IMG/VR virus record: IMGVR_UViG_3300046167_000120
Coordinates: 1 to 25,732 of that record
DNA: 25,732 bases
DNA from: a virus
Direction: 5' to 3' (one strand)
Shown here: one piece after another, positions 1,340 through 24,998 of the stretch
Position numbering within the stretch: position 1 is the first letter of the stretch
How the letters are laid out: each line of letters begins with the position of its first letter
Notes under the pieces: model-generated
The model's input: only the letters and a program-made list of their open reading frames with translations
Databases searched by the model: none
Told to the model about the DNA's origin: nothing
Program-made: the position numbers and the translations under genes

Positions 1340-1606
1340 ATGTCAGTAACACACGAAGAAGTAGTTAAGGCTGCACAAGCCGAGCAAATATTAACATCTG
1401 ATGTTTTTAAAGAAGCAGTAGAGAATTTAAAACAAGAATATATAACACATTGGTTAAACTCAAGAGAGATAGCTGATGTTAATGCCAGAGAAGATATCCA
1501 CAGGTCTTTATTACTATTACCAGAGGTTGAAAGACATCTGCGTATCATTGCTGAGAAAGGTAAACTCACACAAGCTAATATTAACAAAATTAGAAATATT
1601 GGTTAA
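1340..1606 (+). CDS. Small conserved phage protein upstream of scaffold
   Basis: This is an 88-residue protein, mostly charged and probably helical, starting MSVTHEEVVKAAQAEQIL. It begins directly after the stop of the preceding gene, so translation is probably coupled. Proteins of this size and character often sit between portal and scaffold genes in marine podovirus-like genomes, but I cannot name the family. It has no signal peptide, membrane segment or catalytic motif that I can see. A head-assembly role is inferred only from position. Confidence 0.7.
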   Translation: MSVTHEEVVKAAQAEQILTSDVFKEAVENLKQEYITHWLNSREIADVNAREDIHRSLLLLPEVERHLRIIAEKGKLTQANINKIRNIG

Positions 1607-1631
1607 ACCTTCCCTTTTTACACATTATTAA

Positions 1632-1658
1632 GCTAAAATACTCTTAAATACATAAGGA
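1632..1658 (+). promoter_or_regulatory. Possible promoter -10 and strong RBS of scaffold gene
   Basis: The 61-base gap before the scaffold gene holds GCTAAAAT (1632-1639), which recurs at 3686-3693 before another gene. A T-rich CTTCCCTTTTT-like stretch lies upstream in both places. TAAAAT at 1634-1639 fits a -10 box, but I see no well-spaced -35 box. AAGGAG at 1653-1658 is a strong ribosome-binding site for the ATG at 1668. Confidence 0.4.
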
Positions 1659-1667
1659 GTATTTATT

Positions 1668-2678
1668 ATGGCAATAACGGATAAACCGACTGCTTTACAA
1701 ACTGATAAGGAAATTACTGCCTCGATGTTTGAAAGTTTTTTAACCCCTGAAGAGGATAAGGTTGAAGAAGCGGTCACAGAAACAGAAGAAGTAGTAGAAG
1801 AAGTCATCGAAGATGATTCTGAAATTGTTGATGAAGAAATTGATCAGGAAATTGCAGATGAGTTGGAAGATGACGATGAAGAAGAACTGGATGAAGAACA
1901 AACAGATGTTGAAGAGGAAGCTCCGCAACTTCAAACATTTACTGTAAAGGTAGATGGCCAAGAGGTAGAAGTCACGCAAGAGGAACTCGTCAACGGATAT
2001 TCTCGTCAGCAAGATTATACGCGTAAAACACAAGAACTCTCTCAACAGCGTAAAACTATTGAGCAGCAGCAAGCAGAGTTAGCGCAAAGAGATGCGATTT
2101 ATTCGCAGTTGTTACCGAAGATGGAGGCCCAGTTAAAGGGCGAATTGGCTAACGAACCAGATTGGAACACTTTATATGAAGATGATCCTGTTGGTTATGT
2201 TCGCGAAAAGCAACTTTGGGATGAAAAGAAAGAAAAGCTAACCGCAGTTAGTGCTGAACAACAAAGGCTTCAACAAGAAGCACAAGTTAAACAGCAAGCA
2301 CAAATTCAACAAATAGTTGAATATGGTCAGCAGAAGCTTTTGGAAATTATCCCTGAATGGCAAAATCAAGAGATTGCGTCACAAGAAAAAGCAGCTATTA
2401 GCGAATATGCCGTGAATACTTTAGGTTATACACCTCAAGAAATTCAACAGGTTTATGATTATCGTGCATTGCTTGGTTTAAGAAACGCTTGGTTAAACTC
2501 TAAAACAGTTGAAGCCACGAAGAAGAAACCAACACAAAAAGCACCAGCAAGAGTGGCTAGACCTGGAACGACTAACCGACCTAAATCGGCAGCACCTGTG
2601 AAGAAAGCAAAACAAACATTAGCAAAAACTGGAAGAGTCCAGGATGCTGCTAAAGTTTTTGAACAATTTTTAAAATAA
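1668..2678 (+). CDS. Capsid scaffolding protein
   Basis: This 336-residue protein would guide assembly of the prohead and leave or be degraded before DNA packaging. The layout is typical of scaffolds. A strongly acidic stretch of Glu and Asp covers about residues 25-85. A conserved phage segment follows (FTVKVDGQEVEVTQEELVNG, about 91-110), then a Gln/Glu/Lys-rich coiled coil to about residue 235. The C-terminal tail, from about residue 283, is basic with many Lys, Arg, Pro and Ala, as expected for the part that grips the capsid protein. It lies directly before the major capsid gene, which supports the call. The start is fixed by AAGGAG ten bases upstream. Confidence 0.85.
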   Translation: MAITDKPTALQTDKEITASMFESFLTPEEDKVEEAVTETEEVVEEVIEDDSEIVDEEIDQEIADELEDDDEEELDEEQTDVEEEAPQLQTFTVKVDGQEVEVTQEELVNGYSRQQDYTRKTQELSQQRKTIEQQQAELAQRDAIYSQLLPKMEAQLKGELANEPDWNTLYEDDPVGYVREKQLWDEKKEKLTAVSAEQQRLQQEAQVKQQAQIQQIVEYGQQKLLEIIPEWQNQEIASQEKAAISEYAVNTLGYTPQEIQQVYDYRALLGLRNAWLNSKTVEATKKKPTQKAPARVARPGTTNRPKSAAPVKKAKQTLAKTGRVQDAAKVFEQFLK

Positions 2679-2702
2679 TTTTATTTATACAGGAGTATAA
2701 GA

Positions 2703-3638
2703 ATGGCTAAAGTAACTAACGCCTTTGACACATATTCGGCAACAGCTGACAGAGAAGATTTAAGTAATATCATTTACAACATCTCTCCAATGCAGACACC
2801 ATTTATGTCATCAATTGGTAAACGAAATATTAATAACGTAGTGTTTGATTGGCAAACAGAATCATTACCTACACCTAGTGCTGCTGGTCAGTTAGAAGGT
2901 TTTGAACTATCAAGATCTGCTGCTACAGCTACAACTAGAGTAAGTAATGTTGCAATGATCTCAAAAAGAGATGCAACTGTAACTGGCTCACAAGACGCTT
3001 CAGACCCAGCTGGTAAGAGATCAGAAATGGCTCACCAATTAGCTATTATGTCTAAAGCTTTGAAAAGAGACATGGAAGAAGCTTTATGTCAAAAAGGTGC
3101 TAAGACAACTGGTGACGCTACAACAGCTAGGGTAACTGGTGGTTTTGAATCATGGATTACATCTAACGACTCAAGAGGTACTTCAGGTGCTTCAACAGGT
3201 GGTGGTGCAGCTCCAACAGACGGAACTCAAAGAGCTTTAACTGAAACTCTATTGAAAGACACTCTACAACTTTGCTTTGAGAATGGCGGAGAGCCTTCAA
3301 TGGCAATTTGTGGACCACATAACAAACAAGTTATTTCTGGTTTCACAGGTAGAACACAAGCTAGACAAATGATTGATGCAAATACTGTAGAAGCTTCAGT
3401 ATCTGTTTACTCATCTGATTTTGGTGAACTAAAAATCGTTCCATCAAACAGATCAAGAGAAAGATCATTACTATTAGTAGATCCAGAGTTTGCTAAAGTA
3501 TCTTACCTAAGAGACTTTAAAACTGTTGATATTGCTACAATAGGCGATGCTGAAACAAAAATGATTGTTGTTGAGTACGGATTAGAAGTATCTAACGAAG
3601 CTGCTCACGGAGTCGTTGCTGATTTATCAACTTCATAA
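2703..3638 (+). CDS. Major capsid protein (DUF5309/SU10-like)
   Basis: This 311-residue protein forms the capsid shell, presumably with the HK97 fold. The N-terminal pattern (FDTYSATADREDLSNIIYNISPMQTPFMSSIGK) and the segment KRDMEEALCQKG near residue 120 match the DUF5309 family that includes the SU10-like capsid protein. A Gly/Ser/Thr-rich loop (about 150-180) could be surface-exposed. It has no separate prohead protease or signal peptide. AGGAG lies just upstream of its ATG. A strong terminator follows, so scaffold and capsid genes probably form one high-output transcript. Confidence 0.88.
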   Translation: MAKVTNAFDTYSATADREDLSNIIYNISPMQTPFMSSIGKRNINNVVFDWQTESLPTPSAAGQLEGFELSRSAATATTRVSNVAMISKRDATVTGSQDASDPAGKRSEMAHQLAIMSKALKRDMEEALCQKGAKTTGDATTARVTGGFESWITSNDSRGTSGASTGGGAAPTDGTQRALTETLLKDTLQLCFENGGEPSMAICGPHNKQVISGFTGRTQARQMIDANTVEASVSVYSSDFGELKIVPSNRSRERSLLLVDPEFAKVSYLRDFKTVDIATIGDAETKMIVVEYGLEVSNEAAHGVVADLSTS

Positions 3639-3654
3639 GTTTATTAATTAGCTT

Positions 3655-3683
3655 AAAGGGAAGTTTCGGCTTCCCTTTTTTTT
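3655..3683 (+). terminator. Intrinsic terminator after the capsid gene
   Basis: AAAGGGAAG (3655-3663) pairs perfectly with CTTCCCTTT (3670-3678) around the loop TTTCGG. The stem runs into an eight-T tract (3676-3683). This is a textbook rho-independent terminator in the + direction. Confidence 0.93.
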
Positions 3684-3684
3684 G

Positions 3685-3693
3685 TGCTAAAAT
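3685..3693 (+). promoter_or_regulatory. Extended -10 promoter; transcript may be leaderless
   Basis: TGCTAAAAT follows the terminator directly and fits an extended -10 box (TG-n-TAAAAT). Its last base is six bases before the ATG at 3700, so transcription would begin at or next to the start codon. No ribosome-binding site is present in that short gap. The promoter call is inference. Confidence 0.5.
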
Positions 3694-3699
3694 CTGTCT

Positions 3700-3990
3700 A
3701 TGGCAAAGACTACATTAATAGATCACAAGAAAGGCTTTAAGTCTGTATTCGCAACAGAAGATGATAAAGTTGTGTATCACACAAAGCAGGATATACAGCC
3801 AACTTTAGACTATGTAAAAACACTTTCTGAATATACGCCTGGTAAAGATTTACGCCATGTTGCAGAAATACCTATGGTAGTATATCAAAGAGCAGTCCGA
3901 GAAGGATGGGCGCAAGATTCTGCACAATGGAAAAAATGGCTAAACCATTCAGATAACAAACCATTTAGAACATGGAAAGGTAAAGTATGA
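3700..3990 (+). CDS. Conserved protein downstream of capsid gene
   Basis: This 96-residue protein has a conserved look that I associate with marine phage genomes at this position (VVYHTKQDIQPTLDYVK, then LRHVAEIPMVVYQRAVREGW, then a C-terminal NKPFRTWKGKV). The function is unknown. It lacks a ribosome-binding site and may be translated from a leaderless message. The stop overlaps the next start by four bases (ATGA), so the two are probably translationally coupled. A head-completion or decoration role is possible from the position only. Confidence 0.75.
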   Translation: MAKTTLIDHKKGFKSVFATEDDKVVYHTKQDIQPTLDYVKTLSEYTPGKDLRHVAEIPMVVYQRAVREGWAQDSAQWKKWLNHSDNKPFRTWKGKV

Positions 3991-4637
3991 CATACGATGA
4001 ATTAAAAACTAATATCGCAAACTTCTTAAACAGGTCTGATTTAACAGATCAGTTAGACTTCTTTATTGATGCAACTGAATCAGAGTTTAATAGAAGATTA
4101 AGAAACAAAGACATGGTAAAACGTGCTACTGCCACAGCAGATGGACAGTATATGAGCTTACCTACTGATTGGTTAGAAGCAATTAATATAGAGATAACAT
4201 CAAACGACTTTAGACCATTATTCCAACAATCAATAGAATCATTAGATGTCTATAGAAAAGCTAATAATAATGTTACTGGTCAACCTATTTACTATGCGAT
4301 TGTAGATAACTCATTAGAGTTAGCACCTACCCCTGACTCAAGTTATACGCTACAATTAACATACTATGGCACTATAGATGCACTAAGCAGTTCTAATACA
4401 ACGAACTTTATATCCACAGGATATCCAGATGCTTACTTGTATGGTGCTTTAAAACACGCTTCTATCTATCTAATGGAAGATGAAAGAGTGCCGTTATTTA
4501 CAGCACAATTTGAGAAAGCATTAGAAGAGATGAGAATGGAACAAGAGAAAGCAGAGTTTGGCAAAGGATCTCTAATGCAAAGAAGAAGAACTTATGGCAA
4601 GTCTGGTAAAAACATTTATTATTGGAATAATAATTAG
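3987..4637 (+). CDS. Head-tail adaptor protein (SU10-adaptor-like)
   Basis: This 216-residue protein should form the ring that joins the portal to the tail. The N-terminal helical part (MTYDELKTNIANFLNRSDLTDQ and FIDATESEFNRRLR) is followed by the segment YMSLPTDWLEAINIEI, and the C-terminal third is helical with YPDAYLYGALKHASIYLMED. This matches the adaptor family described for SU10-like phages and is reminiscent of tail tubular protein A. Its place after the capsid gene and before tail genes agrees. It overlaps the preceding gene by four bases. Confidence 0.75.
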   Translation: MTYDELKTNIANFLNRSDLTDQLDFFIDATESEFNRRLRNKDMVKRATATADGQYMSLPTDWLEAINIEITSNDFRPLFQQSIESLDVYRKANNNVTGQPIYYAIVDNSLELAPTPDSSYTLQLTYYGTIDALSSSNTTNFISTGYPDAYLYGALKHASIYLMEDERVPLFTAQFEKALEEMRMEQEKAEFGKGSLMQRRRTYGKSGKNIYYWNNN

Positions 4638-16076: not shown

Positions 16077-16490
16077 ATGCCACGCCAATCTGAAAGAGTT
16101 GGCCGATCTGGAGAATACCTAGTAGCCTCGCTACTTTCTTTATACGCTGATACTGTATTGGTAGTTCCACACAGCGCGGAGGCAGACATCATCTTTGACG
16201 TTGACCATACGCTATACAAGTGCCAGGTTAAAACACAATCTAAAATACAAACACATAGAGTGTCATGGCAGTTTGATTTTAGGCGTGGTGCGTTTACCAA
16301 AGACAGATACTACGAGGACAAAGCATTAGATGTTTATGCTTTGGTTGCTTTAGATCCGCAGAAGGTTTTGTTTACTTTTCCAAACGGCAAGAAGCAGATG
16401 ACTATTACAGACGAGAAGTTACAGGCGATGGACTCGCTGAAAAATACTGAAGATCTATTTAAAGAGCTTCGATGTCAACAGACACCTTAG
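16077..16490 (+). CDS. Small PD-(D/E)XK endonuclease
   Basis: This 137-residue protein shows the order of the PD-(D/E)XK nuclease fold: GRSGEYLVASLL with Glu13, SAEADIIFDV with Asp37, and YKCQVKTQ with Gln50 and Lys52. The Q-x-K form of the active site resembles the group-I-intron-type endonuclease family (PDDEXK_5). It would cut DNA, perhaps at branched or replication intermediates. The 3' end overlaps the reverse-strand gene at 16459 by 32 bases, tail to tail. No ribosome-binding site is seen before the ATG, which lies four bases after the previous stop. Confidence 0.72.
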   Translation: MPRQSERVGRSGEYLVASLLSLYADTVLVVPHSAEADIIFDVDHTLYKCQVKTQSKIQTHRVSWQFDFRRGAFTKDRYYEDKALDVYALVALDPQKVLFTFPNGKKQMTITDEKLQAMDSLKNTEDLFKELRCQQTP

Positions 16491-16674
16491 GATTATCGTA
16501 ATGTTTAACAGAGTTCATACCTAAAGATATTAGATACTCAACCACTTTAGCTGGTTCTTTCTGTTCACTTTTACAAAAGTCCTTAAACTTTTTAGCAAGA
16601 TGCTTGTTTATATATACAGGTTTTCTACCATTTCTTTCTTTTAAGATACGATCATCAAACTCATATAGATTCAT
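16459..16674 (-). CDS. Probable ribbon-helix-helix DNA-binding protein
   Basis: This 71-residue protein fits the Arc/CopG plan: a basic strand (NGRKPVYINKHLAKKF), then two helices (AKKFKDFCKSEQ, then EPAKVVEYLISLGMNS). A short tail follows. GAGG five bases before the ATG is a good ribosome-binding site. It is the second gene of a two-gene leftward unit, seven bases after the DUF3310 gene. A regulator of nearby early genes would fit. The fold call rests on pattern only. Confidence 0.65.
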   Translation of the reverse strand: MNLYEFDDRILKERNGRKPVYINKHLAKKFKDFCKSEQKEPAKVVEYLISLGMNSVKHYDNPKVSVDIEAL

Positions 16675-16681
16675 AGTTACC

Positions 16682-17017
16682 TCATTTATCTAGCGAGAAC
16701 TCTACAGAATATTTACCAATGTCAGCACCTTTGGCATCAACGCCATGTACCATCTGCAACTCTAAATCTATAAAGTGTTTCGCTTTTAACAAGTCGGTTA
16801 CTCTATCAGACTTCTCGCCTTTGCTTCTGGTTATATACTTTAAACAACTACCTAGATTATAAGATAGTTTGTTTGCATATATATAGTCTATAGGTTGTAT
16901 CTTGGATTGCTTGTAATGCGTTCCAGCTACTTGGTTGTTGGTAGCAAGCTTGTCTATAGCCTGATCCCATTCCTCTTCTGTTCCCATATTCGTATGTGCA
17001 TATATTGTTTTATTCAT
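16682..17017 (-). CDS. DUF3310 phage protein
   Basis: This 111-residue protein carries the DUF3310 core: VAGTHYKQSKIQPIDYIYANKLSYNLGSCLKYITR from about residue 31, followed by KAKHFIDLELQ. Such proteins are common in phage early regions and are sometimes called nucleotide-kinase-like or SaV-like. The biochemical role is not settled. GGAGAA lies ten bases before the ATG. It is the first gene of the leftward unit and faces the divergent HTH gene across an 88-base control region. Confidence 0.82.
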   Translation of the reverse strand: MNKTIYAHTNMGTEEEWDQAIDKLATNNQVAGTHYKQSKIQPIDYIYANKLSYNLGSCLKYITRSKGEKSDRVTDLLKAKHFIDLELQMVHGVDAKGADIGKYSVEFSLDK

Positions 17018-17105: not shown

Positions 17106-17321
17106 ATGGATATATTAGAAAAGAATTTTGACATATCAAACACCATAGAAGTTGATGAACTAGCGAAGCGTTGGGGAGTCAGCAAGAAAACAATTGATAA
17201 TAGAAGATATAGAGGGCAAGGTCCTAGCTATTTTAAGATTGGTGGGAAGATACTTTATGATCTGAAAGATGTGCAAAAAATGGAAAACGATTCTTATATT
17301 TCTGTAGATGGCACACGCTAA
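17106..17321 (+). CDS. HTH_17 / excisionase-type regulator
   Basis: This 71-residue protein is a single winged helix-turn-helix of the excisionase/MerR type. TIEVDELAKRWGVSKKTIDNRRYRGQGPSYFKIGGKILYDLKDV has the helix-turn-helix at about residues 16-35 and the wing in GGKILYDLKDV. AAAGGG is ten bases before the ATG. It is the first gene of the rightward early operon and its end overlaps the next gene by 14 bases. There is no integrase in the window, so a regulator is more likely than a true excisionase. Confidence 0.8.
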   Translation: MDILEKNFDISNTIEVDELAKRWGVSKKTIDNRRYRGQGPSYFKIGGKILYDLKDVQKMENDSYISVDGTR

Positions 17322-18042
17322 ACTAAGTCCTTCAGCAGCGAAGATATGGATGGCTTGTCCAGGTATGCCACAACTCTTAGCTTCTATGCAAGTAGAATAC
17401 AAGGTTGGAATACCAGCAGCGACAGGTACATTGATTCACGAAATGGTAGAGACACTACTAAAAGGAAGGCTAAACAACCTAACACTAGAAGAATACTATC
17501 TTGGTACAACACACCATGTAGAGGACTTTGATATCACAGTTGACCAAGAGATGATTGATTGTGCTAATACCTATGTAGATTACATAGACCAAAGAATGAT
17601 GGACTTGGATGTAGCAAGACCATTGATTGAAGAAAAAGTTAATATGCCAGAAATACATACAGACCTATGGGGAACAGCAGATGCAATTCTCATTGGTAAA
17701 GATATGATAGAAGTAATAGATCTTAAAACTGGTAAGTGGGCAGTTGAAGCTGACAACCCACAAATGCGCATCTATGCACTTGGTGCTTTATCCAGATACG
17801 GAGATGACTGCACAGTGCAGTTCACAATAGTACAACCTAGAGGCTGGCACAAAGACGGCCCTATCAGATCATATTCCATATCAGCCATTAACTTGGTTGA
17901 ATGGGCCTATGAAACTTTGAAGCCAGCTGCTGAAGCTTGCTACGAAGAAATACCCACATACAACTATAGCAAAGACGGATGCCGTTGGTGTAATGCTAAA
18001 GCTGAATGTGATACTTATAAACTAAACCAAAAGGGAGAATAA
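17308..18042 (+). CDS. DUF2800 RecB-like nuclease with Fe-S cysteines
   Basis: This 244-residue protein matches the phage DUF2800 / PD-(D/E)XK_1 nuclease family related to Cas4 and AddB. The N-terminal SPSAAKIWMACPG gives Cys17, and TGTLIHEMVE supplies the conserved His-Glu. Asp125 lies in WGTADAIL, and Asp138 and Lys140 lie in VIDLKTGK. Cys225, Cys228 and Cys234 (CRWCNAKAEC) with Cys17 complete a likely iron-sulphur cluster. It should act as a 5'-to-3' exonuclease in recombination or end processing with the Sak4 and SSB genes downstream. The N-terminus overlaps the HTH gene. Confidence 0.85.
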   Translation: MAHAKLSPSAAKIWMACPGMPQLLASMQVEYKVGIPAATGTLIHEMVETLLKGRLNNLTLEEYYLGTTHHVEDFDITVDQEMIDCANTYVDYIDQRMMDLDVARPLIEEKVNMPEIHTDLWGTADAILIGKDMIEVIDLKTGKWAVEADNPQMRIYALGALSRYGDDCTVQFTIVQPRGWHKDGPIRSYSISAINLVEWAYETLKPAAEACYEEIPTYNYSKDGCRWCNAKAECDTYKLNQKGE

Positions 18043-18043
18043 T

Positions 18044-18292
18044 ATGGCAGATCAAGAGCCAATAACTTTTAGCATCACAGAAGATGATGTTACTAAAGAC
18101 TATAACCTAGATGACTTATCAGAAGAAGGTCAGACTGTTTATAGAAAACTAAACCTGTTACAAGCGCAGAAGAATGAACTTGTAGCTAACGCAAACTTTG
18201 AAGCAGAGAAGAACGACATCTTACAAGCGCATTACTTAAATGAGTTGAAAGGTCATCTGCCAGAAGATAAACCAAAGATTGAGGTGCAATAA
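18044..18292 (+). CDS. DUF6447-like small protein
   Basis: This 82-residue protein is helical and acidic (YNLDDLSEEGQTVYRKLNLLQAQKNELVANANFEAEKNDILQAHYL). The short strand and the pattern LDDLSxEGxxxxRKL, then a coiled coil, resemble the DUF6447 group of small phage proteins. It overlaps the ATPase gene start by one base (TAATG). Function is unknown. Its place between nuclease and ATPase suggests a part in the recombination module. Confidence 0.65.
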   Translation: MADQEPITFSITEDDVTKDYNLDDLSEEGQTVYRKLNLLQAQKNELVANANFEAEKNDILQAHYLNELKGHLPEDKPKIEVQ

Positions 18293-19020
18293 TGTCCTTA
18301 GCTAATATTAGACAGAAGGCAAAACTAAAGCCACCCATCATAGTTCTTTATGGTCCTGGTGGTATTGGTAAAACATCTTTTGGTGCAACTATGAATAAAC
18401 CAATCATAGTACAAGCAGAGGATGGTATAGGTAAGATTGAGTGTCCTCATTTTCCTGTAGCTAAAACTTATGTTGAACTACAAGATAACCTAAAGTCATT
18501 GATTGAAGAAGATAGCGAATACAAAACTGTCATAGTAGATAGTTTGGATTGGTTAGAAACTTTAATGCAAGACTATGTGTGTGAAAAGAATGGATGGCCT
18601 GATATATCTTCACCTGCTTATGGTAAAGGCTATGCCGCTTGCCTAGAGATATGGAAAGAGTATTTAAGTTTATTAAATCAGTTGCGAGATAAAGGCTTTA
18701 CTGTCTTACAGATTGCACATAATGAAGTGAGAAGATACGAAGATCCATCTAGCGAACCACATGACAGACACCAGATTAAGTTGCATAGAAAAGCAGCTGA
18801 CTTGGTTATAGAACATAGTGATGCAGTATTCTTTGCTAACTACAAGATAGGTACTATTCAAGTAAAAGGTAAAGGCGGTGGTATGACTACTAAACTTAAG
18901 CAAGGAGATAGAACTATCTTTACGCAAGAGACACCTGGCTTCCAAGCTAAAAATCGTTTTGGTCTGGATAATGAGATGCCGTTTGAATGGCAGGCTATTA
19001 GAGAGCAGATGTTGAGATGA
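18292..19020 (+). CDS. Sak4-like RecA-fold ATPase (annealing/recombination)
   Basis: This 242-residue protein is an AAA_24/Sak4-type ATPase. GPGGIGKT at residues 21-28 is the Walker A motif. TVIVDSLDW with Asp83 is the Walker B motif. LQIAHNEVRR, about residue 141, is the sensor-like strand. Sak4 proteins promote single-strand annealing and strand exchange in phage recombination, usually with an SSB. Here the SSB and a nuclease lie in the same operon. The C-terminal end (MPFEWQAIREQML) is typical for the family. The stop overlaps the next ATG by four bases. Confidence 0.85.
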   Translation: MSLANIRQKAKLKPPIIVLYGPGGIGKTSFGATMNKPIIVQAEDGIGKIECPHFPVAKTYVELQDNLKSLIEEDSEYKTVIVDSLDWLETLMQDYVCEKNGWPDISSPAYGKGYAACLEIWKEYLSLLNQLRDKGFTVLQIAHNEVRRYEDPSSEPHDRHQIKLHRKAADLVIEHSDAVFFANYKIGTIQVKGKGGGMTTKLKQGDRTIFTQETPGFQAKNRFGLDNEMPFEWQAIREQMLR

Positions 19021-19156: not shown

Positions 19157-19654
19157 ATGGATTTAACAAATTTTAATGTAGATGCGTCAAGCGAAGGCAA
19201 GACAGCAGTAGAGCCAGGTAGACACGTTCTGCATTGGCAGGGCGAGGAAGAGGCGTTAGTAGAAGGTAGAAATGGCTGGCGTGGGTGCAAGATGTATTTT
19301 GAGATTGATGGTACGAGCATCAGACTTAATCATACTTTTACTGTTGGTCACGACAACCCTAAATATGTAGATAGTGGTATCAAGTCTATGCTACTTATGG
19401 GTCAAGCAATGGGTATACAAGAGCCACCAAAAGATACTTCATCAGCCTTTATGGGTAAGAGTGTATCTGCTGAACTAATCAAAGATGACAATGGTTATCT
19501 TAAGATTAACGAGGACTGGGGTAAGACTTGGCAATCTACTAATCAAAAAGCTAAGCCAGTTGTAGAAGATGACAATATCAAAGCTGGTCCAAGTGAAGCA
19601 GACTTAGATGCAATGGGTACTACTGTGGCTAGCGAGGATGACTTACCATTTTAA
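19157..19654 (+). CDS. Single-stranded DNA-binding protein (DUF669-like)
   Basis: This 165-residue protein is probably the phage SSB. The N-terminal two-thirds look like an OB-fold (VEPGRHVLHWQGEEEALVEGRNGWRGCKMYFEIDG, later RLNHTFTVGH). The C-terminus is acidic and ends in DDLPF, very like the DDDIPF tail of bacterial SSB that recruits partner proteins. DUF669-type phage proteins next to Sak4-like genes are a known pairing. AAAGGAG is well placed before the ATG. The tail may dock the nearby ATPase, nuclease or host repair proteins; that is inference. Confidence 0.78.
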   Translation: MDLTNFNVDASSEGKTAVEPGRHVLHWQGEEEALVEGRNGWRGCKMYFEIDGTSIRLNHTFTVGHDNPKYVDSGIKSMLLMGQAMGIQEPPKDTSSAFMGKSVSAELIKDDNGYLKINEDWGKTWQSTNQKAKPVVEDDNIKAGPSEADLDAMGTTVASEDDLPF

Positions 19655-20036
19655 CCCTAAGAACAGGCCAACGCTGTGTGCTTATTGTAAGCGCCCAGCA
19701 GGTCCGTTTTTAAAAGAGGATGGAGAACACTGGCTTGGAGCGTGCTGTATGGCTCATTTAAAAAAGATTGGAGAGGGAGAAAGACTACCCAACAAAGCAC
19801 AATTAAATGATTTAGGGATAGAGTATTCCATAGCACAAACCAAAGATTTATATACAAAACTAGCAATAGAAGAAGATCAAAAACCATTACATAAATGGGA
19901 AAGGGATAAACGAAAAAAGATCTTTACTAATATAGTTAGGGAATATCTAAACTGGGCAAACGTGCAAGCCGAGTTAGATGACGAGAGAGCTGCAAATGGA
20001 TTTAACAAAGTACCTGAAAAAAGGCGTAGTCTATAA
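19638..20036 (+). CDS. Zinc-finger protein overlapping SSB end
   Basis: Taking the ATG at 19638 gives 132 residues; an upstream ATG at 19608 is also in frame. The later start is preferred because GAGG lies close to it and it overlaps the SSB gene by only 17 bases. The N-terminal part has CAYCKR and, after a gap, WLGACCMAHLKK, which could form a small zinc finger. The rest is charged helix. It has no recognised family. Its end overlaps the primase-helicase start by 41 bases. A DNA-binding accessory factor for replication is plausible. Confidence 0.6.
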   Translation: MTYHFNPKNRPTLCAYCKRPAGPFLKEDGEHWLGACCMAHLKKIGEGERLPNKAQLNDLGIEYSIAQTKDLYTKLAIEEDQKPLHKWERDKRKKIFTNIVREYLNWANVQAELDDERAANGFNKVPEKRRSL

Positions 20037-20496
20037 CGACTTAGGTTTTAGTACAGGAAAGAGTACACACGAATTAATAAACGAGATGCAAGCACAAGGA
20101 TTGCTTGTAGACTTCTTAGAAATTACTGGCGAGATAATCAGAGTGCCAGTCAAAGCAATAGCATCAAAGCCTGACTCTGGGCGACAGAAGTCTGGATATT
20201 ATGTAGTCAACCAGGTTGGCGAACATATGTTTTGTACTTATGGTAATTGGAAAACTGGTTTTGAGGGCAAGTGGTCAAGCATAGATACTAACCAACTTAG
20301 TATTGTAGATAGACAAGCACTACAAAAACAAATGGAAGAGGCTAGTGCTAAGTCGCGAGCAGAAAGGAAACAGAGACAAGATGAAGTTGCAATTGAGGTA
20401 GAAGAACGTCTTAAAATTTGCCACGAAGCAACTGAACATGAATATCTCACGAATAAAAAAGTTAAAAGTTATGGTTTGAAGGCAGTTAAATGGTAA
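19996..20496 (+). CDS. Primase-helicase, N-terminal part (frame 1)
   Basis: These 166 codons, with the start chosen at 19996 behind GAGAG (six-base gap; an ATG at 19978 is also in frame), encode the start of a TOPRIM primase. The protein begins MDLTKYLKKGVVYNDLGF. Later come the HPxLxxKxVxxxGL-like segment EYLTNKKVKSYGLKAV, which is conserved just before the TOPRIM core of phage and plasmid primases. A TAA at 20494 ends the frame. The next residues expected for the family, GNLIVPVY, are encoded at once in the +1 frame. The protein thus looks split by one base and should be read with the following entry. Confidence 0.75.
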   Translation: MDLTKYLKKGVVYNDLGFSTGKSTHELINEMQAQGLLVDFLEITGEIIRVPVKAIASKPDSGRQKSGYYVVNQVGEHMFCTYGNWKTGFEGKWSSIDTNQLSIVDRQALQKQMEEASAKSRAERKQRQDEVAIEVEERLKICHEATEHEYLTNKKVKSYGLKAVKW

Positions 20497-20527
20497 TTTA
20501 ATTGTTCCTGTCTATTCTACTACAGGA
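20478..20527 (+). other. Frame-change site with stop codon and hairpin
   Basis: GAAGG (20478-20482) resembles an internal Shine-Dalgarno element. AAA (20488-20490) can be moved one base to AAT, which leads straight into GGT AAT TTA and the conserved GNL. The frame-1 stop TAA is at 20494-20496. Nine bases later TCCTGT (20506-20511) pairs with ACAGGA (20522-20527). This arrangement could drive a programmed +1 shift. A one-base insertion or sequencing error would look the same. Confidence 0.5.
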
Positions 20528-21826
20528 CAGATTCGTTCTCTACAGACTATCAATAAAAAGGGCGAGAAAAGGTTTAAGTCTGCTTCAGAAATCAAAGGTA
20601 ATGTATTTTTAATTGGTACTACCTTACAAGATCTAAACAATATAGAAAAATTAATTTTAGTTGAAGGCTACTCAACTGCCGCTTCAGTATATGAAGCAAC
20701 CCAAATTCCTGTAGCTTGTGTATTTAGTGCCAACTTCTTGTTGGATGCAGCCTCTAATTTACGCAAGCTAACAGGTGCTAGATTTATTCTCGCACTTGAT
20801 AATGATGAGAGTGGAGTGGGAGAGAAGAAGGCGCAAGAGTGTTGTGCGAGTGTGCCAAATACAGCAGTAAGATTACCGAGCGAGCGCGGAGACTATAACG
20901 ACTTATATTTAAAACATGGGTTAGATAAAGTAAGAGCCGAATTAGTGGATCACAAACTAGGAATCCAAAAGTATGCGATTCGTAATCTAGTTGGTAAGCC
21001 TGAGCCACAAAAGTTTTTAGTAGACGGATTGATACCTATTGGTAAGCCTGGACTGTTAGCGGCTAGTGGTGGGGTTGGTAAGTCCCTAAGTGTCATACAG
21101 TTAGCTTTAAGAATAGCGTGCGGAGGTGGGCGCTGGTGGGGAAAAGATGTAAAAGAGCGCGGAAATGTAATAGTTCTTTGTGCTGAAGATGATTTACCAG
21201 AGATACACAGAAGGCTTGATTTATTAGACCCAAGAGGAGAAAGATTTAATAGTCAGTATGAAGTTTATGTATTTCCAATTCCAGAACAAAAAGAACCAAT
21301 GATATTGTTAAGAGAAGAAGGTATAACACCACAGGCAACTGAACTTTTAGAGGAAATATCTTCTATACCAAATTTAAAATTGGTTTGTTTTGATCCTCTG
21401 CAAGCATTTACAACAGGGAATGTTAGTAGTAGTAATGAAGTTGGCCAGTTATGGGGTTCTTATTGCGCAAACATATCAGCTAGACTCAAATGTACAACGC
21501 TCACAGTACATCATTTAAACAAAGCTGGTCTTACAGTTGATTCAGATGACTCTATGGTGCAGAGAACTAGTGTGAGAGGTGCTTCAAGTTTGGTCGACTC
21601 ACAAAGATTCTGCCTGACAATGGCTCTTGGAGATGTTGAAACTTGTGAGAGGATATGCGAGGAGCAACGAGTACCATACGACAGAATGGCCGTTGTGAAA
21701 GCATCATTAGTTAAATCTAATTCTGGCAATGTTGATTACAGTACCAAAACATTATTTAGAAAGAATGGTGTACTAGAACCATTAGAAGAATTACAAAATC
21801 CTATGGCACTTTATGATAATTTTTAA
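20480..21826 (+). CDS. TOPRIM + RepA-type helicase part (frame 2)
   Basis: The frame is open from 20480. The first usable start, TTG at 20738, lies inside the TOPRIM domain, so this is not a sound gene on its own. From 20492 it reads GNLIVPVYSTTGQIRSLQTI, then LVEGYSTAAS (TOPRIM Glu, 20663), then LALDNDESG (Asp-x-Asp at 20798-20806). The C-terminal domain is a RepA-type hexameric helicase: Walker A in SGGVGKS near 21070, Walker B LVCFDPL near 21390, and TVHHLNK near 21510. Read with the preceding part through a +1 shift the protein would have about 609 residues. It would unwind DNA and prime at a phage origin. Confidence 0.85.
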   Translation, partial: RQLNGNLIVPVYSTTGQIRSLQTINKKGEKRFKSASEIKGNVFLIGTTLQDLNNIEKLILVEGYSTAASVYEATQIPVACVFSANFLLDAASNLRKLTGARFILALDNDESGVGEKKAQECCASVPNTAVRLPSERGDYNDLYLKHGLDKVRAELVDHKLGIQKYAIRNLVGKPEPQKFLVDGLIPIGKPGLLAASGGVGKSLSVIQLALRIACGGGRWWGKDVKERGNVIVLCAEDDLPEIHRRLDLLDPRGERFNSQYEVYVFPIPEQKEPMILLREEGITPQATELLEEISSIPNLKLVCFDPLQAFTTGNVSSSNEVGQLWGSYCANISARLKCTTLTVHHLNKAGLTVDSDDSMVQRTSVRGASSLVDSQRFCLTMALGDVETCERICEEQRVPYDRMAVVKASLVKSNSGNVDYSTKTLFRKNGVLEPLEELQNPMALYDNF

Positions 21827-21943: not shown

Positions 21944-21993
21944 GAGAGCAATCCCCTTGAGGGGGATTGACTCTCTGGAAAGCGCGAACGCTT
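21944..21993 (+). other. Two hairpins before the winged-helix gene
   Basis: GAGAG plus CAATCCCC pairs with GGGGATTG plus CTCTC (21944-21975) with a 5-base loop and one bulged A. AAGCG and CGCTT (21980-21993) enclose a CGAA loop. No T tract follows, so this is not a simple terminator. It may be an origin structure, an RNA regulator of the gene at 22007, or a processing site. Confidence 0.6.
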
Positions 21994-22006
21994 GCGCAGG
22001 AGAAAG

Positions 22007-22450
22007 ATGAGAAGATTTGGACAAATAGATAAAGCCTATTGGTGGATTACTGCTCACATCGAAAGCGAGCGAGGGGAGAAAACAGCATTGATACCCATAG
22101 CGCTTGCTAGAAAGGAATCAGACTTCTCGCGCGTGCGCCAGATCGTTTGGCATTGGTATCGCTCGGAGGTTGCAGGCAATGAAGATCTATCTATGACAGC
22201 TAGATTCGTTGGTTGGGCATTGTGCGAGCGCTGGAGGTATGAAACCTGGAGTTCGCATGATGCTATTAGTTATTATGCAAAGATGACAGCAGTAAATCGT
22301 AAAAGCGTTGGGAGAGCGCTAGCGGAGTTGAGCGAGCAAGGATTAATATGGATAGTTTTGGAGGGCGAGCCAAAGCGCTTGCGGAAGTCCCAGAGCGGAG
22401 GGAAGAAACATTTTTTATTAGTTGGTTTAGCGGAGTTGGTTCGTGAGTAG
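22007..22450 (+). CDS. Winged-helix-type protein of the replication region
   Basis: Starting at the ATG at 22007 behind CAGGAGAAAG gives 147 residues. An upstream TTG at 21992 is in frame, but lies in a hairpin. The C-terminal half carries a probable winged helix (TAVNRKSVGRALAELSEQGLIWIV); the N-terminal half has an odd cluster of Trp and Arg (YWWITAHIE, VRQIVWHWYRS). The pattern resembles plasmid or phage replication-initiator DNA-binding domains, but I cannot name a family. Codons are richer in G and C than in neighbouring genes. The end lies about 20 bases before a G-rich stretch. Confidence 0.7.
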   Translation: MRRFGQIDKAYWWITAHIESERGEKTALIPIALARKESDFSRVRQIVWHWYRSEVAGNEDLSMTARFVGWALCERWRYETWSSHDAISYYAKMTAVNRKSVGRALAELSEQGLIWIVLEGEPKRLRKSQSGGKKHFLLVGLAELVRE

Positions 22451-22473
22451 CGCGAGGAGGGGGGCGGTGCGAG

Positions 22474-22533
22474 GAATGGGCGCTAGCGTTTCAGGGGTTT
22501 AACTTTGGAGAGTTAAGATACCAACGCCCATTC
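22474..22533 (+). other. Nested stem-loop element between convergent genes
   Basis: GAATGGGCG (22474-22482) is the exact reverse complement of CGCCCATTC (22525-22533). Inside, TTAACT (22499-22504) pairs with AGTTAA (22511-22516) around TTGGAG. No run of T follows in either direction, so it is not an ordinary terminator. It could be an RNA structure shielding the ends of the two convergent transcripts, or a DNA site. Confidence 0.55.
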
Positions 22534-22548
22534 AAAAAGGTTATTGTA

Positions 22549-22668
22549 TCATTTCTTTTTTTCTTTAGTTTCTTTTTTCTTTTCGCGCTTGCCAAAGATC
22601 TTATCCCAGTTCTCCGCGAATGTTTTTTTATCTGGTATTGGTCTTGGTCTGCTTCCTTTTCCTGTCAT
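22549..22668 (-). CDS. 39-residue conserved phage mini-protein
   Basis: The ATG at 22668 overlaps the stop of the gene before it (ATGA), with a GGGGG-containing ribosome-binding site. The product starts MTGKGSRPRPIPDKKTFAEN and continues WDKIFGK, then ends in a Lys/Glu-rich tail. The opening GKGSRPRP and the (W/Y)DxIFGK segment are a frequent small phage protein type that is usually unannotated. The function is unknown. It is the last gene of the leftward cassette. Confidence 0.75.
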   Translation of the reverse strand: MTGKGSRPRPIPDKKTFAENWDKIFGKREKKKETKEKKK

Positions 22669-22865
22669 ATTAAACCCCCTACATTTTTCTCATATAATAT
22701 TGCTTCGGTTATAAATTCTAATATTTCGTCCCTATCGTCATCCTGGTGCAAGTTATACATAATGGATATATTAGTTATTTCATCTTCAAGTAAACCTTTG
22801 CGGTCTTGCTCTAATACATAGTTTTGTATGTGTTCTATTTCTTGCTCGTTGTAGTGATTGCTCAT
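22665..22865 (-). CDS. Acidic 66-residue protein, unknown
   Basis: The product is strongly acidic: 16 Asp/Glu against 4 Lys/Arg, including HQDDDRDEILEF. It is likely all helical. GAGGG lies just before the ATG. Its ends overlap both neighbours by four bases. No family is recognised. Small acidic early phage proteins are sometimes DNA mimics that block host enzymes, but no sequence motif proves this here. Confidence 0.68.
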   Translation of the reverse strand: MSNHYNEQEIEHIQNYVLEQDRKGLLEDEITNISIMYNLHQDDDRDEILEFITEAILYEKNVGGLI

Positions 22866-22951
22866 ATTTTCCCTCTGAATAAATAGAATAATGCTTTTAG
22901 TTTTTCATCTGTTAGATGTCTTAAATGTTTTGGTATGTCCTCTCGCTTCAT
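22862..22951 (-). CDS. 29-residue mini-protein in the cassette
   Basis: The ATG at 22951 overlaps the previous stop (ATGA) and the stop overlaps the next ATG in the same way. GAGG is six bases before the start. The product contains MKREDIPKHLRHLTDEKL and a short helix ending LFRGKI. The double overlap and ribosome-binding site support translation, though it is very short. Confidence 0.6.
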   Translation of the reverse strand: MKREDIPKHLRHLTDEKLKALFYLFRGKI

Positions 22952-23154
22952 GTCGTCCTCACTGTGCCATTCGGAGAAACTGTGCCTAGCCTTTCCCCTG
23001 TTATTGTTAATAAAAGCCATACGCCGTCTCTGTCTTGCTTAGACGCGTCTTTATTTGGGTATATGATCTCGCCAGTGTGTCCTAGCTCATCTCTAAGATG
23101 CCTGGAGTATGCGAACTCAGCCATAGCGAAAGTTATTGTTTTATATGGTTTCAT
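22948..23154 (-). CDS. 68-residue protein, unknown
   Basis: The product begins MKPYKTITFAMAEFAYSRH and ends in a beta-strand pair (DGVWLLLTITGERLGTVSPNG). No family is recognised. GAGG, nine to twelve bases before the ATG, serves as ribosome-binding site. The gene overlaps its upstream neighbour by 14 bases, the only junction in the cassette longer than four. Confidence 0.66.
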   Translation of the reverse strand: MKPYKTITFAMAEFAYSRHLRDELGHTGEIIYPNKDASKQDRDGVWLLLTITGERLGTVSPNGTVRTT

Positions 23155-23431
23155 TGTTTTTTTCCTCTTTTAGTTCGTTTATTTCATCTTCAAAACAATA
23201 TTGAATACCTTGATATAGGTTTTCCCAACTTACCCCATAATTAGCGTCATGGTTATCTACAACTCTTTGCAGAACGTCCATACAGTCATCATCAGTAAGT
23301 TTTAGGTCAACCTTCTCTGGCATATCCTCGTTTAGTATTTCTAGCTGGTCTTTAACGTCTTCTATTGACCAAATAATAGCAACAGAGTTATTGCTGTTAT
23401 ATCCGTTTCCATATTCTTTTACTTTATTCAT
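23141..23431 (-). CDS. Acidic 96-residue protein, unknown
   Basis: The product has about 23 acidic and 8 basic residues. It starts with a Gly/Asn-rich segment (KEYGNGYNSNNS), then WSIEDVKDQLEILN and LTDDDCMDVLQRVVDNHDANYGVSWENLYQGI, then an acidic Lys/Glu tail. The middle segment is probably a conserved small domain of unknown function seen in phages. AAGGGG before the ATG is a strong ribosome-binding site. Start and upstream stop share one base (TAATG). Confidence 0.7.
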   Translation of the reverse strand: MNKVKEYGNGYNSNNSVAIIWSIEDVKDQLEILNEDMPEKVDLKLTDDDCMDVLQRVVDNHDANYGVSWENLYQGIQYCFEDEINELKEEKNNETI

Positions 23432-23604
23432 TATTTACCCCTTGTTGGTTTGCCATTAGGAAAGGTTAAAGCGGTACTAAACGCTTGCCAGTCCTCTGGT
23501 GTCATTATTTGCTCTACCTTATGGATAGGCGTGTTATCTTTTAGGCCGTACTTCTTGCGAAGCTGTCCTATGATGCTTCTGTGTGATCTGGTTTTAATAG
23601 TCAT
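23431..23604 (-). CDS. 57-residue basic mini-protein
   Basis: The ATG at 23604 and the stop at 23431 both share a base with neighbouring codons (TAATG on each side). The product begins MTIKTRSHRSIIGQLRKKYGL, basic and probably helical, then IMTPEDWQAFSTALTF and a basic end. No family is recognised. The continuous overlap on both sides supports a real gene. Confidence 0.65.
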   Translation of the reverse strand: MTIKTRSHRSIIGQLRKKYGLKDNTPIHKVEQIMTPEDWQAFSTALTFPNGKPTRGK

Positions 23605-23927
23605 TACGCCACCTCTTGCTCTTGCACATAATCAAAAACGATTTCCTCGCCTATAATATATACATACATATTCACTATGGCCTCTGGACTTGAAAAGTCT
23701 GTCATAACTTCGCCAAAGTTAAATAACTCATATTCTTTTATAAAGTCAATAATATTAAAGACTTGATCGCCTAGCCATTGAGTAGCTTTATAAGATCCTA
23801 TGATGTAATAATCAGTATTAAAGATTTCATGGTGTAAATCGTCATGGTTATTGTCAATCCATTCTTTATCGTAGTTGATAATAGAATCGTTGAAATGTTC
23901 TTGTATTTCTTGTTTCTTGTAGTTCAT
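23604..23927 (-). CDS. Acidic 107-residue protein, unknown
   Basis: The product holds about 22 acidic and 5 basic residues, giving a net charge near -17. It is rich in Tyr, Asn, Ile and Phe (NTDYYIIGSYKATQWLGDQ; NMYVYIIGEEIVFDYV). No family is recognised. AGGGG precedes the ATG. The strong acidity and aromatic content recall phage anti-restriction or DNA-mimic proteins; this is inference. Confidence 0.68.
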   Translation of the reverse strand: MNYKKQEIQEHFNDSIINYDKEWIDNNHDDLHHEIFNTDYYIIGSYKATQWLGDQVFNIIDFIKEYELFNFGEVMTDFSSPEAIVNMYVYIIGEEIVFDYVQEQEVA

Positions 23928-24166
23928 TATTTTACCCCTGTAAATTGTTTAGCTAAGTCAGACTCACAACCTTTGTGAAAAGGTATAGCCTGGATTCTTA
24001 CTTTAGTAGCTCTAAGGTTAGATGCTAAATTATTAGCTAATTTTTCGCATGTTATAGGTTCTCCATCAAACATAGATAACAAAATACTTTCTTGTAAATA
24101 TTCTGGTTTGTTCTTGTCATCTGGTTTTACACCCCAAATTACATATTCTATATATTGGTTATTCAT
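23927..24166 (-). CDS. First gene of the leftward cassette, unknown
   Basis: This 79-residue protein begins MNNQYIEYVIWGVKPDDK and has EKLANNLASNLRATKVRIQAI in the middle, a helix-strand pattern. The charge is near neutral, unlike several later genes of the cassette. GGAGAA, eight bases or so before the ATG, is a good ribosome-binding site. The inverted repeat upstream (24181-24211) lies where a promoter would be. No family is recognised. Confidence 0.68.
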   Translation of the reverse strand: MNNQYIEYVIWGVKPDDKNKPEYLQESILLSMFDGEPITCEKLANNLASNLRATKVRIQAIPFHKGCESDLAKQFTGVK

Positions 24167-24180
24167 AACTACTTCTCCAA

Positions 24181-24235
24181 AGTATGTAAGATTTAATTAC
24201 CTTACAATACTCATTTTACACAATACAACACAATA
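24181..24235. promoter_or_regulatory. Operator-like inverted repeat and direct repeats
   Basis: AGTATGTAAG (24181-24190) and CTTACAATACT (24201-24211) form an inverted repeat that is perfect except for one extra base, with a 10-base spacer. ACACAATA occurs at 24218-24225 and 24228-24235, ten bases apart. The place, 15 to 70 bases before the leftward cassette and 84 or more before the small terminase gene, suits an operator/promoter. The remaining gap to 24318 shows AT-rich sequence only. Confidence 0.6.
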
Positions 24236-24302
24236 AGCAACACTTTATATGCATAAATGTGTAATTAATTGCTTAAATCCGATAAATAAAGGGTTTATAG
24301 AG

Positions 24303-24308
24303 TACAAT
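24303..24308 (+). promoter_or_regulatory. Possible -10 box of the small terminase gene
   Basis: TACAAT ends 10 bases before the ATG at 24319, so a transcript could have a leader of only a few bases. No convincing -35 box or ribosome-binding site is seen. The call is tentative. Confidence 0.35.
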
Positions 24309-24318
24309 TAAACGGAAT

Positions 24319-24771
24319 ATGGAAACAAAAACACCTAAAAAGAGAGGGCGTAAACCAATCAATATTGACCCAGATAGGGTTGAACATTTAGCCTCTCAAG
24401 GACTCGGAGTTATGGATATTTGTAGGTCTCTGGGCGTTGGCTGGGACACATTTAACAAATACAGAGAAAAGAAAAACTCGGGAATTTCGGACGCTCTAGA
24501 TCGTGGAAAGAGTAAAGGCCTGGCATTTGTAACAAGCAAACTCATGGAAACAATAGAGGACAAGAATTTTAATGCTATCTCTTTCTATCTAAGAAACCGC
24601 GCGCCAGATCAATGGGCAGACCGCCAGGAAGTCAATCACAATTTAGATCTTAAAGGCGTTCTAACTGACGCACGCGAGCGCATTAGCATAATAGAACACG
24701 CGCCAGCGCACGCGCTAAAGAACAGCACGCGCACTGCGACAGTAAGCGACAGCGAAGGCGCGGATGAATAA
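24319..24771 (+). CDS. Terminase small subunit
   Basis: This 150-residue protein should bind the packaging site and hand DNA to the large subunit. The N-terminus is basic (KKRGRKPINIDPDRVEHL), followed by a helix-turn-helix (ASQGLGVMDICRSLGVGWDTFNKYREK). The segment SDALDRGKSKGLAFVTSKLMETIED and the RNRAPDQWADRQEV block are typical of phage small terminases. The last 30 residues are Ala/Thr/Ser-rich and encoded by unusually GC-rich DNA. It stands 227 bases before the large subunit gene, with a terminator and a hairpin array in the gap. Confidence 0.82.
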   Translation: METKTPKKRGRKPINIDPDRVEHLASQGLGVMDICRSLGVGWDTFNKYREKKNSGISDALDRGKSKGLAFVTSKLMETIEDKNFNAISFYLRNRAPDQWADRQEVNHNLDLKGVLTDARERISIIEHAPAHALKNSTRTATVSDSEGADE

Positions 24772-24786
24772 CAAGGGATTAATTGC

Positions 24787-24810
24787 GAGCAATAGTTTTG
24801 CTCCCTTTTT
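24787..24810 (+). terminator. Terminator after small terminase gene
   Basis: GAGCAA (24787-24792) and TTGCTC (24798-24803) form a perfect stem around TAGTT, followed by CCTTTTT. AAGGG at 24773-24777 can also pair with CCCTT at the base, extending the stem across an internal loop. Confidence 0.75.
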
Positions 24811-24870
24811 AACTAATGCTAGATACTCTCTCACTGTCGCATTTAGTCCCTTTCCTATGCACCATAGACT

Positions 24871-24915
24871 GATAGTGAACACTTACTAACATAATGATAG
24901 TTAGTACTCACTATC
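24871..24915 (+). other. Nested hairpin with GATAGT repeats (candidate pac/cos)
   Basis: GATAGTGA (24871-24878) pairs with TCACTATC (24908-24915), and inside it TACTAAC (24884-24890) pairs with GTTAGTA (24900-24906). GATAGT occurs at 24871, at 24896 and, on the other strand, at 24910-24915. Lying between the two terminase genes, it is a candidate packaging-recognition site. The region to 24998 also has C and A/T runs and GGGCGGTGC (24942-24950). The function is inference. Confidence 0.5.
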
Positions 24916-24998
24916 GTTTAGACCCCCCACCTTGCGCTAGAGGGCGGTGCAGTGTACGTGGAACTACTGAACTAAAATTTTTTAATTTTTTTTAATAT

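Follow-up and report, generated by a model that had tools for sequence, protein, structure and literature searches.

Why would a phage pack eight small genes so tightly that every stop codon overlaps the next start, and what could such strict coupling be for? The question arises from an IMG/VR virus record of 25,732 bases (the window, by which we mean the whole stretch of DNA that was analysed). It is a tailed-phage fragment whose gene set includes scaffold, major head, tail-spike, exonuclease, Sak4-like annealase, primase/helicase and terminase. The window has no close match among annotated phage records; its TerL is 60% identical to that of an environmental podovirus record and more distant from that of epsilon15. 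A contig of a MAG labelled Pelagibacter holds a TerL match of 86%, which is a weak hint of a Pelagibacter host because MAG binning can be wrong. Our searches of open-licence PMC papers listed no report of this locus. The coordinates of the cassette and of the features discussed with it are collected in Table 1.

Table 1. Features of the cassette locus and associated genes in the window
Feature	Coordinates	Strand	Remarks
g1	23927..24166	-	79 aa; family F23, in 5/88 regions
g2	23604..23927	-	107 aa, acidic; all-helical model; PHROG 10208; family in 22/88 regions; TAATG with g1 at 23927
g3	23431..23604	-	57 aa; family in 35/88 regions; TAATG with g2; tail ...RGK* contains SD
g4	23141..23431	-	96 aa; PHROG 10258; family in 2/88 regions; TAATG with g3
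g5	22948..23154	-	68 aa; family F0, in 70/88 regions; 14-base overlap with g4
g6	22862..22951	-	29 aa; family F1, in 57/88 regions; ATGA with g5
g7	22665..22865	-	66 aa, acidic; family F2, in 37/88 regions; ATGA with g6
g8	22549..22668	-	39 aa, basic; family F5, in 24/88 regions; ATGA with g7
Leader	24167..24318	-	Divergent from terS; presumed promoter and 5' UTR of the cassette
Entry SD motif ACUUUGGAGA of first gene	24174..24183	-	
3' element	22474..22533	-	Covarying outer stem and inner hairpin with CUCC loop (UCUCCAAAGU)
h152	21992..22450	+	Conserved convergent neighbour, bounds the locus
terS	24319..24771	+	Terminase small subunit, other boundary; PHROG 309
Exonuclease	17308..18042	+	PHROG 69, 1.6e-59; could serve recombination
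Sak4-like ssDNA annealing protein	18292..19020	+	PHROG 124, 3e-41; could serve recombination

Other parts of the window drew our attention in passing. The terS-terL gap (24772-24998) holds a long imperfect dyad, seen by eye as GATAGTGA ... TCACTATC with an inner CTAAC ... GTTAG, which is a possible operator or packaging signal. Primase/helicase matches in 19157-21826 are distributed over separate overlapping frames (19978-20496 and the TTG-started 20738-21826) and could be split genes or a sequence frameshift. Between 16491 and 17105, 615 bases are without a plus-strand gene; the minus-strand ORFs 16459-16674 and 16682-17017, near which an excisionase/MerR-like gene lies at 17106, possibly form a second leftward unit.

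The preliminary description had reported seven junctions (three TAATG, a 14-base overlap and three ATGA), no intergenic base, and three genes of fewer than 60 codons. We recovered all of this along the minus strand from g1 to g8: every position from 22549 to 24166 is coding, and the short genes have 57, 29 and 39 aa. The overlap is -1 or -4 at six of the seven junctions and -14 at the other, placing stop and start close enough for coupling. At each of the eight cassette starts the SD energy is -6.0 kcal/mol or better, whereas 11% of the window's 827 ATGs come to -5. A count that uses no gene caller found an ATGA/TAATG-type overlap of an ORF stop with an ATG at six of eight stops in the window's region, against none of seven on the other strand. 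Across 88 such regions (see below) the same count gave 487 of 1133 ORF stops; the reverse strand yielded 13 of 689, and dinucleotide shuffles 19 of 570.

Selection tells the same story for the reading frames. By a simple count over related regions, dN/dS is 0.17-0.48 in all eight families (the value for g4 comes from one sequence pair), and by this sequence measure all eight cassette genes are under purifying selection. Strong SDs and the excess of synonymous over amino-acid change together argue that the small ORFs are real genes, the 29-codon g6 included. An upstream ATG at 23020 would extend g6 to 52 aa; we rejected this form because its SD energy is -2.9 kcal/mol compared with -6.5 for the 29-aa start, and because many relatives align only from residue 24 onward. 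The 29-aa start is the likely one. Our simple gene caller favours SDs and sometimes misplaces the first gene (in L007, L134 and others); since it rewards SDs, statements about the SDs of called genes are partly built in, and the caller-free count is unaffected.

To place the cassette among its relatives, we assembled 88 distinct terS-to-h152 regions of 878-4655 bases, window included, from scans with g2, g4, h152, terS, g1 and g7. With the caller, these regions resolve into 881 genes with 793 junctions, of which 279 are -4 and 170 are -1; on the reverse strand of the same regions, 7 of 329 junctions were tight. Once identical junctions had been removed, ATGA/TAATG overlaps made up 379 of 686 junctions in the cassettes and 63 of 425 among flanking genes of the same contigs, under the same caller. 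Set against flanks, reverse strand and shuffles, these counts make the overlap architecture a property of this locus throughout the family, rather than of one phage or of the whole genome. The loci are related, so that the counts are not independent and p-values are overstated.

How would ribosomes be loaded onto such an array? Both of its ends are distinctive. The leader, from the edge of terS to the first cassette start, measures about 150 nt in 13 of the 14 regions with terS identity of at least 75% (window included); the exception is L007, whose first gene was called early, probably wrongly. The leader is similar among relatives despite different first genes. A sigma-70 promoter scan returned fewer sites than in shuffles. 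At the opposite end lies the 3' element, with an MFE of -24.4 kcal/mol and a z-score of -5.7. Aligned over 14 relatives (window included), it has a 12-pair outer stem in which 6 pairs show changes in both partners, and the CUCC loop is the same in all 14 sequences. Of 168 stem pair cells, 25 hold a G-U pair when read on the cassette strand, which the opposite strand would turn into an A-C mismatch; as such pairs occur on the cassette strand only, the cassette-strand RNA is the conserved form of the element.

A covariance model of the element, R1, matched 49 of the 88 loci at 1e-6 or better, once each and in cassette orientation, 14 of these matches being the model's own sequences and hence expected by construction. 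Weaker matches on the opposite strand mirror the same sites. At 1e-6 the other 39 loci gave no R1 match, and the Pelagibacter MAG locus gave none either, so that any gate formed by the element is not family-wide as modelled. Rfam produced no match at gathering in the window, nor at E up to 1 in 22300-24400. We rejected an ordinary intrinsic terminator since no T-run follows the element on either strand.

The two ends match each other. The loop of the window, UCUCCAAAGU, complements the SD stretch of the first gene, ACUUUGGAGA, over 10 nt; exact matches to CTTTGGAGA occur in the window at the entry SD motif (24174..24183, minus strand) and at 22503-22511 (plus strand), and nowhere else. Loop and leader are predicted to form a duplex of -15.3 kcal/mol; pairing that leader with the anti-SD used in the analysis gives -6.4. 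Other phages have differing leaders with matching loops, for example GGAGAAGATAA, CATTTACGGAGA, ATATACGGAGA, GGAGATAAATA and AGGAGAAAACA. Over 14 leader types, complementarity was 6.42 nt for matched ends and 4.68 across types, a value as high being reached in 0 of 20000 permutations; over the 49 element-bearing loci it averaged 9.54 nt in matched pairs and 7.60 in pairs with different loops. Part of the complementary stretch is paired within the inner stem of the 3' element.

This complementarity depends on the kind of start. In the 49 element-bearing loci (a count that leaves out the 39 of 88 without an R1 match at 1e-6), at least 8 complementary nt were present at 33 of 43 first starts and at 11 of 24 starts after a gap of at least 20 nt. 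Such complementarity was absent from all 79 starts that follow shorter gaps and was seen at 1 of 220 coupled starts and at 2 of 30 that overlap in other ways. Taking all 88 loci, the last 200 nt as target and a threshold of at least 10 nt, the corresponding counts were 18/59 for first starts, 6/57 after gaps of at least 20 nt, 2/124 after gaps of 0-19, 1/305 for coupled starts and 2/87 for other overlaps. Several of the 10 first starts (of 43) without 8-nt complementarity look like miscalled first genes. Inner RBS matches of at least 8 nt numbered 24 of 227; the larger part are further entry starts or miscalled first genes, and the remainder are probably chance. Second entry starts that carry the motif were found in L019, L115, L173, L175, L177 and L244. 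The contrast between entry and coupled starts suggests that the loop singles out starts in need of fresh ribosome recruitment and ignores coupled ones. Separately, we observed in the arrays of L237, L246 and L248 more than one entry motif that complements the 3' loop.

What kind of contact would this be? We infer that it is made in cis, within one RNA. The 3' element could instead act in trans, either as a small RNA derived from the 3' UTR or through a CUCC loop that mimics the 16S anti-SD, and the invariance of CUCC in the 14 aligned elements, together with the several entry SDs per array that match one loop, would be compatible with such action. The covariation extends beyond CUCC, however, which fits a specific partner and not 16S rRNA as far as mimicry is concerned, and we consider action in trans rather unlikely. 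Alternatively, the matching ends could be DNA inverted repeats bound by one protein, a repressor or a recombinase, with no RNA contact at all; the leader motif and the 3' element are indeed inverted repeats that bound the cassette and co-vary. Against this, the match coincides with the SD and is found again at additional entry starts within arrays (L019, L173, L175, L177 and L244) but hardly at coupled ones, the G-U stem pairs favour one strand, and the window holds no further copy; flank copies of the motif were absent from 28 of 30 loci, with one each in L246 and L248. We regard DNA sites as an unlikely explanation and return to an RNA contact between the 3' loop and the entry SDs.

If ribosomes enter mainly at the leader, the genes behind it depend on their joints, and these can be followed through extensive gene turnover. 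The 881 proteins of the 88 regions fall into 244 clusters, 118 of them singletons, and the eight families of the window differ widely in frequency (Table 1), occurring all together in the window only (1 of 88). The g3 family has 15 different right-hand neighbour families, and at least one copy of each is tightly joined. In 87 cases an arrangement A-X-B in one region appears as A-B in another; all three joints of the triple overlap in 46 of them, and all are at -1 or -4 in 29. At least two alternative middle genes were found for 34 neighbour pairs, nine of these between g3 and g5. From these comparisons, single genes have been gained, lost and swapped at start/stop-codon joints. The steadiest part of the array is the distal block g5-g6-g7-g8, where g6 and g7 retain their order in 29 of the 33 regions holding the two, as do g7 and g8 in 13 of 13; g5 and g6 are reversed in 13 of the 51 regions that have both. 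The preliminary description had named the loss of several frames in close relatives as an outcome that would speak against it: this loss is real for the gene set, but the coupling architecture persists.

The joint itself shows which gene carries the start signal. Because the genes overlap, the SD of each coupled gene sits in the last codons of the preceding one. At TAATG joints where the upstream gene is kept and the downstream gene swapped, identity is 0.52-0.64 in the gene, rises to 0.71-0.88 at -16..-1 and is 0.36 by +6; where the downstream gene is kept, identity before the ATG is 0.33-0.71 and high only at the SD core and the stop. Similarity necessarily stops at gene ends, so the break in identity is no proof of recombination; what is telling in these alignments is the raised conservation of the SD tail, which joints with gaps of 0-16 lack. 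Unrelated families also share C-terminal tripeptides (EVA in 14, VTQ and VQQ in 7 each, QDQ and EQD in 6 each), compared with at most 3 families for any tripeptide at a control position.

Beyond the 14-nt joint core, DNA similarity is at background (0.299 vs 0.288). Joints recur more often than under order-0 and order-1 position-specific nulls, and their recurrence is within reach of an order-2 null (56 vs a mean of 29.3 and a maximum of 65; 43 vs a mean of 20.5 and a maximum of 47). Near-identical joints flank a gene on both sides in 19 of 116 cases, against 9 of 321 for non-adjacent joints of the same region, as one would predict if genes come and go by way of short direct repeats at the joints. 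Divergent homology is no bar to Rad52-like phage recombinases (PMC3945230, in the part cited here, whose main text does not mention Sak4), and joint recombination may be carried out by the phage's own Sak4-like annealase and exonuclease.

Ordinary genome compaction would make a simpler account, in which the deletion of spacers yields overlaps that have neither a relay function nor a special exchange mechanism. Overlaps of -1 and -4 are common throughout prokaryotes, according to the cited portions of PMC6728339 and PMC10666635, and other genes of the window are close-packed too. Compaction does not, however, account for the excess of tight joints over the flanks of the same phages, for joints that persist while neighbours change, or for SD tails common to unrelated genes, nor does it predict the difference between entry and coupled starts in loop complementarity; we think it improbable. 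Functional coupling is the reading that we retain: in the cited passages of the same two papers, -1/-4 overlaps couple translation in E. coli and Haloferax, and by analogy translational coupling within the cassette is very likely.

Coupling had been taken in the preliminary description to suggest fixed ratios among the encoded proteins, and although genes of heteromeric complexes are enriched in short overlaps (PMC10666635, in the portion cited) and the distal order is well kept, we find fixed ratios within one complex highly unlikely as the reason for the overlaps because gene partners swap while joints stay: the conserved partners expected of such an operon are absent, as the varied neighbours of g3, the reversals of g5/g6 and the single occurrence of the full set attest, and are partly kept in the g5-g8 block only. 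Nor need the ratios be fixed, since every cassette gene has its own strong SD.

The proteins themselves give few clues. Searches of the cassette proteins against Pfam, PHROGs and PADLOC, one of the homology searches leaving out g6, returned only PHROG families with no assigned function, for g2 and g4. AlphaFold models of g2 (pLDDT 93, all helix) and g5 (pLDDT 89.5) matched no PDB fold at E 0.001 or better. Profile searches against PDB sequences were uninformative, and their best match (0.0015, over a 27-residue stretch) was taken as chance. Some arrays of relatives hold larger genes with a function (L159:3779-4456, the array end of L004, L149:651-1265, L222:3064-3687 and L199:3464-3961), namely an MT-A70-type methyltransferase, DNA methyltransferase-like proteins and a 5' deoxyribonucleotidase. 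These are the sole scanned array members with a clear function, and they fit counter-defence or takeover genes. Probably, the array encodes dispensable functions in host takeover or counter-defence, and their set varies with the host.

More distant loci resemble the array in part. Genes similar to g2 in Lactococcus and Enterococcus phages (L282, L283) belong to runs of small genes with gaps at most junctions, which indicates that g2 itself does not impose overlaps. Phage DSL-LC05, from a lake (L272), has a TerL with 54% identity and, at 690-4078, a leftward small-gene block opposite terS that includes an annotated repressor C; this block could be a remote counterpart of our locus.

Taken together, we consider it moderately probable that the cassette represents one form of an array of interchangeable accessory genes, working as a translation relay with RNA-gated ends. 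Throughout a large family of uncultured phages, such arrays would sit at one fixed place, between terS and h152. Ribosomes would load mainly at the entry SD or SDs and pass from gene to gene by termination-reinitiation. An ORF that starts with ATG and ends with an SD and TAATG or ATGA would keep the chain readable, and any such ORF would fit because the gene upstream of a coupled gene carries that gene's SD in its final codons. Annealing at the short joints that genes have in common would bring in new genes, with assistance from the phage exonuclease and the Sak4-like annealase. The 3' hairpin loop would pair with the entry SDs, and through this pairing one contact could gate the loading of the whole array; by analogy with icaR, the gate is most likely a repressor or off-switch.

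We put forward more tentatively, as a serious possibility, that one co-evolving contact between the 3'-UTR hairpin and the entry site switches an open-ended array, with all joint-inserted genes under its control. Inserted genes would come under the same control at once, since the tail of each gene supplies the next start signal. If this is true, control is separate from gene content, and counter-defence genes could be swapped without rewiring regulation. The model suggests, in concrete and testable terms, how small genes can come and go in phages while expression stays intact: a joint would be stop codon, start codon, SD and recombination seam at once. It also has practical uses. Gene finders can miss genes of 29-60 codons, for which an SD in the upstream tail plus an overlap makes a calling rule, and a covarying, genome-specific SD/anti-SD pair would predict which starts of an operon are real ribosome entries. 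Both rules, tail SD with overlap and loop match, could guide the annotation of uncultured phages.

Several known systems share some of these traits. Integron arrays consist of a fixed leader that feeds a variable string of captured genes, and the likeness to our locus lies in this combination of fixed leader and variable array; the genes here overlap and have no attC-like spacer sites, and no integrase was seen in the cassette. The mobile regulatory cassettes of T4-type phages, reportedly an intergenic promoter plus stem-loop, are said to mediate modular shuffling. They too are short regulatory sequences bordering shuffled small genes, but the array described here is without intergenic DNA and has its joints inside coding sequence.

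Closer in their joints are coupled ATGA/TAATG pairs, in which, as the cited portions of PMC6728339 and PMC10666635 describe them, the SD also lies inside the upstream gene. In the same portions, the genes of known coupled pairs often stay together, complex subunits being one example, whereas the cassette exchanges partners across the whole array. The Start Associated Sequences of Cluster K mycobacteriophages are likewise short repeats with an SD core that precede the starts of unrelated genes, and the upstream stop may fall inside them, as it does in the cassette joints (PMC3203893, in the passages cited). They have one 13-bp consensus per phage group and, within those passages, no known partner. 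The Cluster K 13-bp GGGATAGGAGCCC does not describe the listed joint cores of our locus, which differ; unlike Cluster K, the cassette has several joint classes that encode shared C-terminal tails, and its 3' RNA loop matches entry SDs only.

The nearest parallel for the gate is icaR of Staphylococcus aureus, in which a C-rich 3'-UTR motif is complementary to the SD of its own mRNA (PMC3868564, in the part cited). There the pairing stops initiation and creates a substrate for RNase III. A 3'-UTR motif complementary to the SD region is likewise found here, a shared transcript being assumed. According to that part of the source icaR is a single gene, whereas the present locus is an exchangeable multi-gene array that carries the motif in a covarying hairpin.
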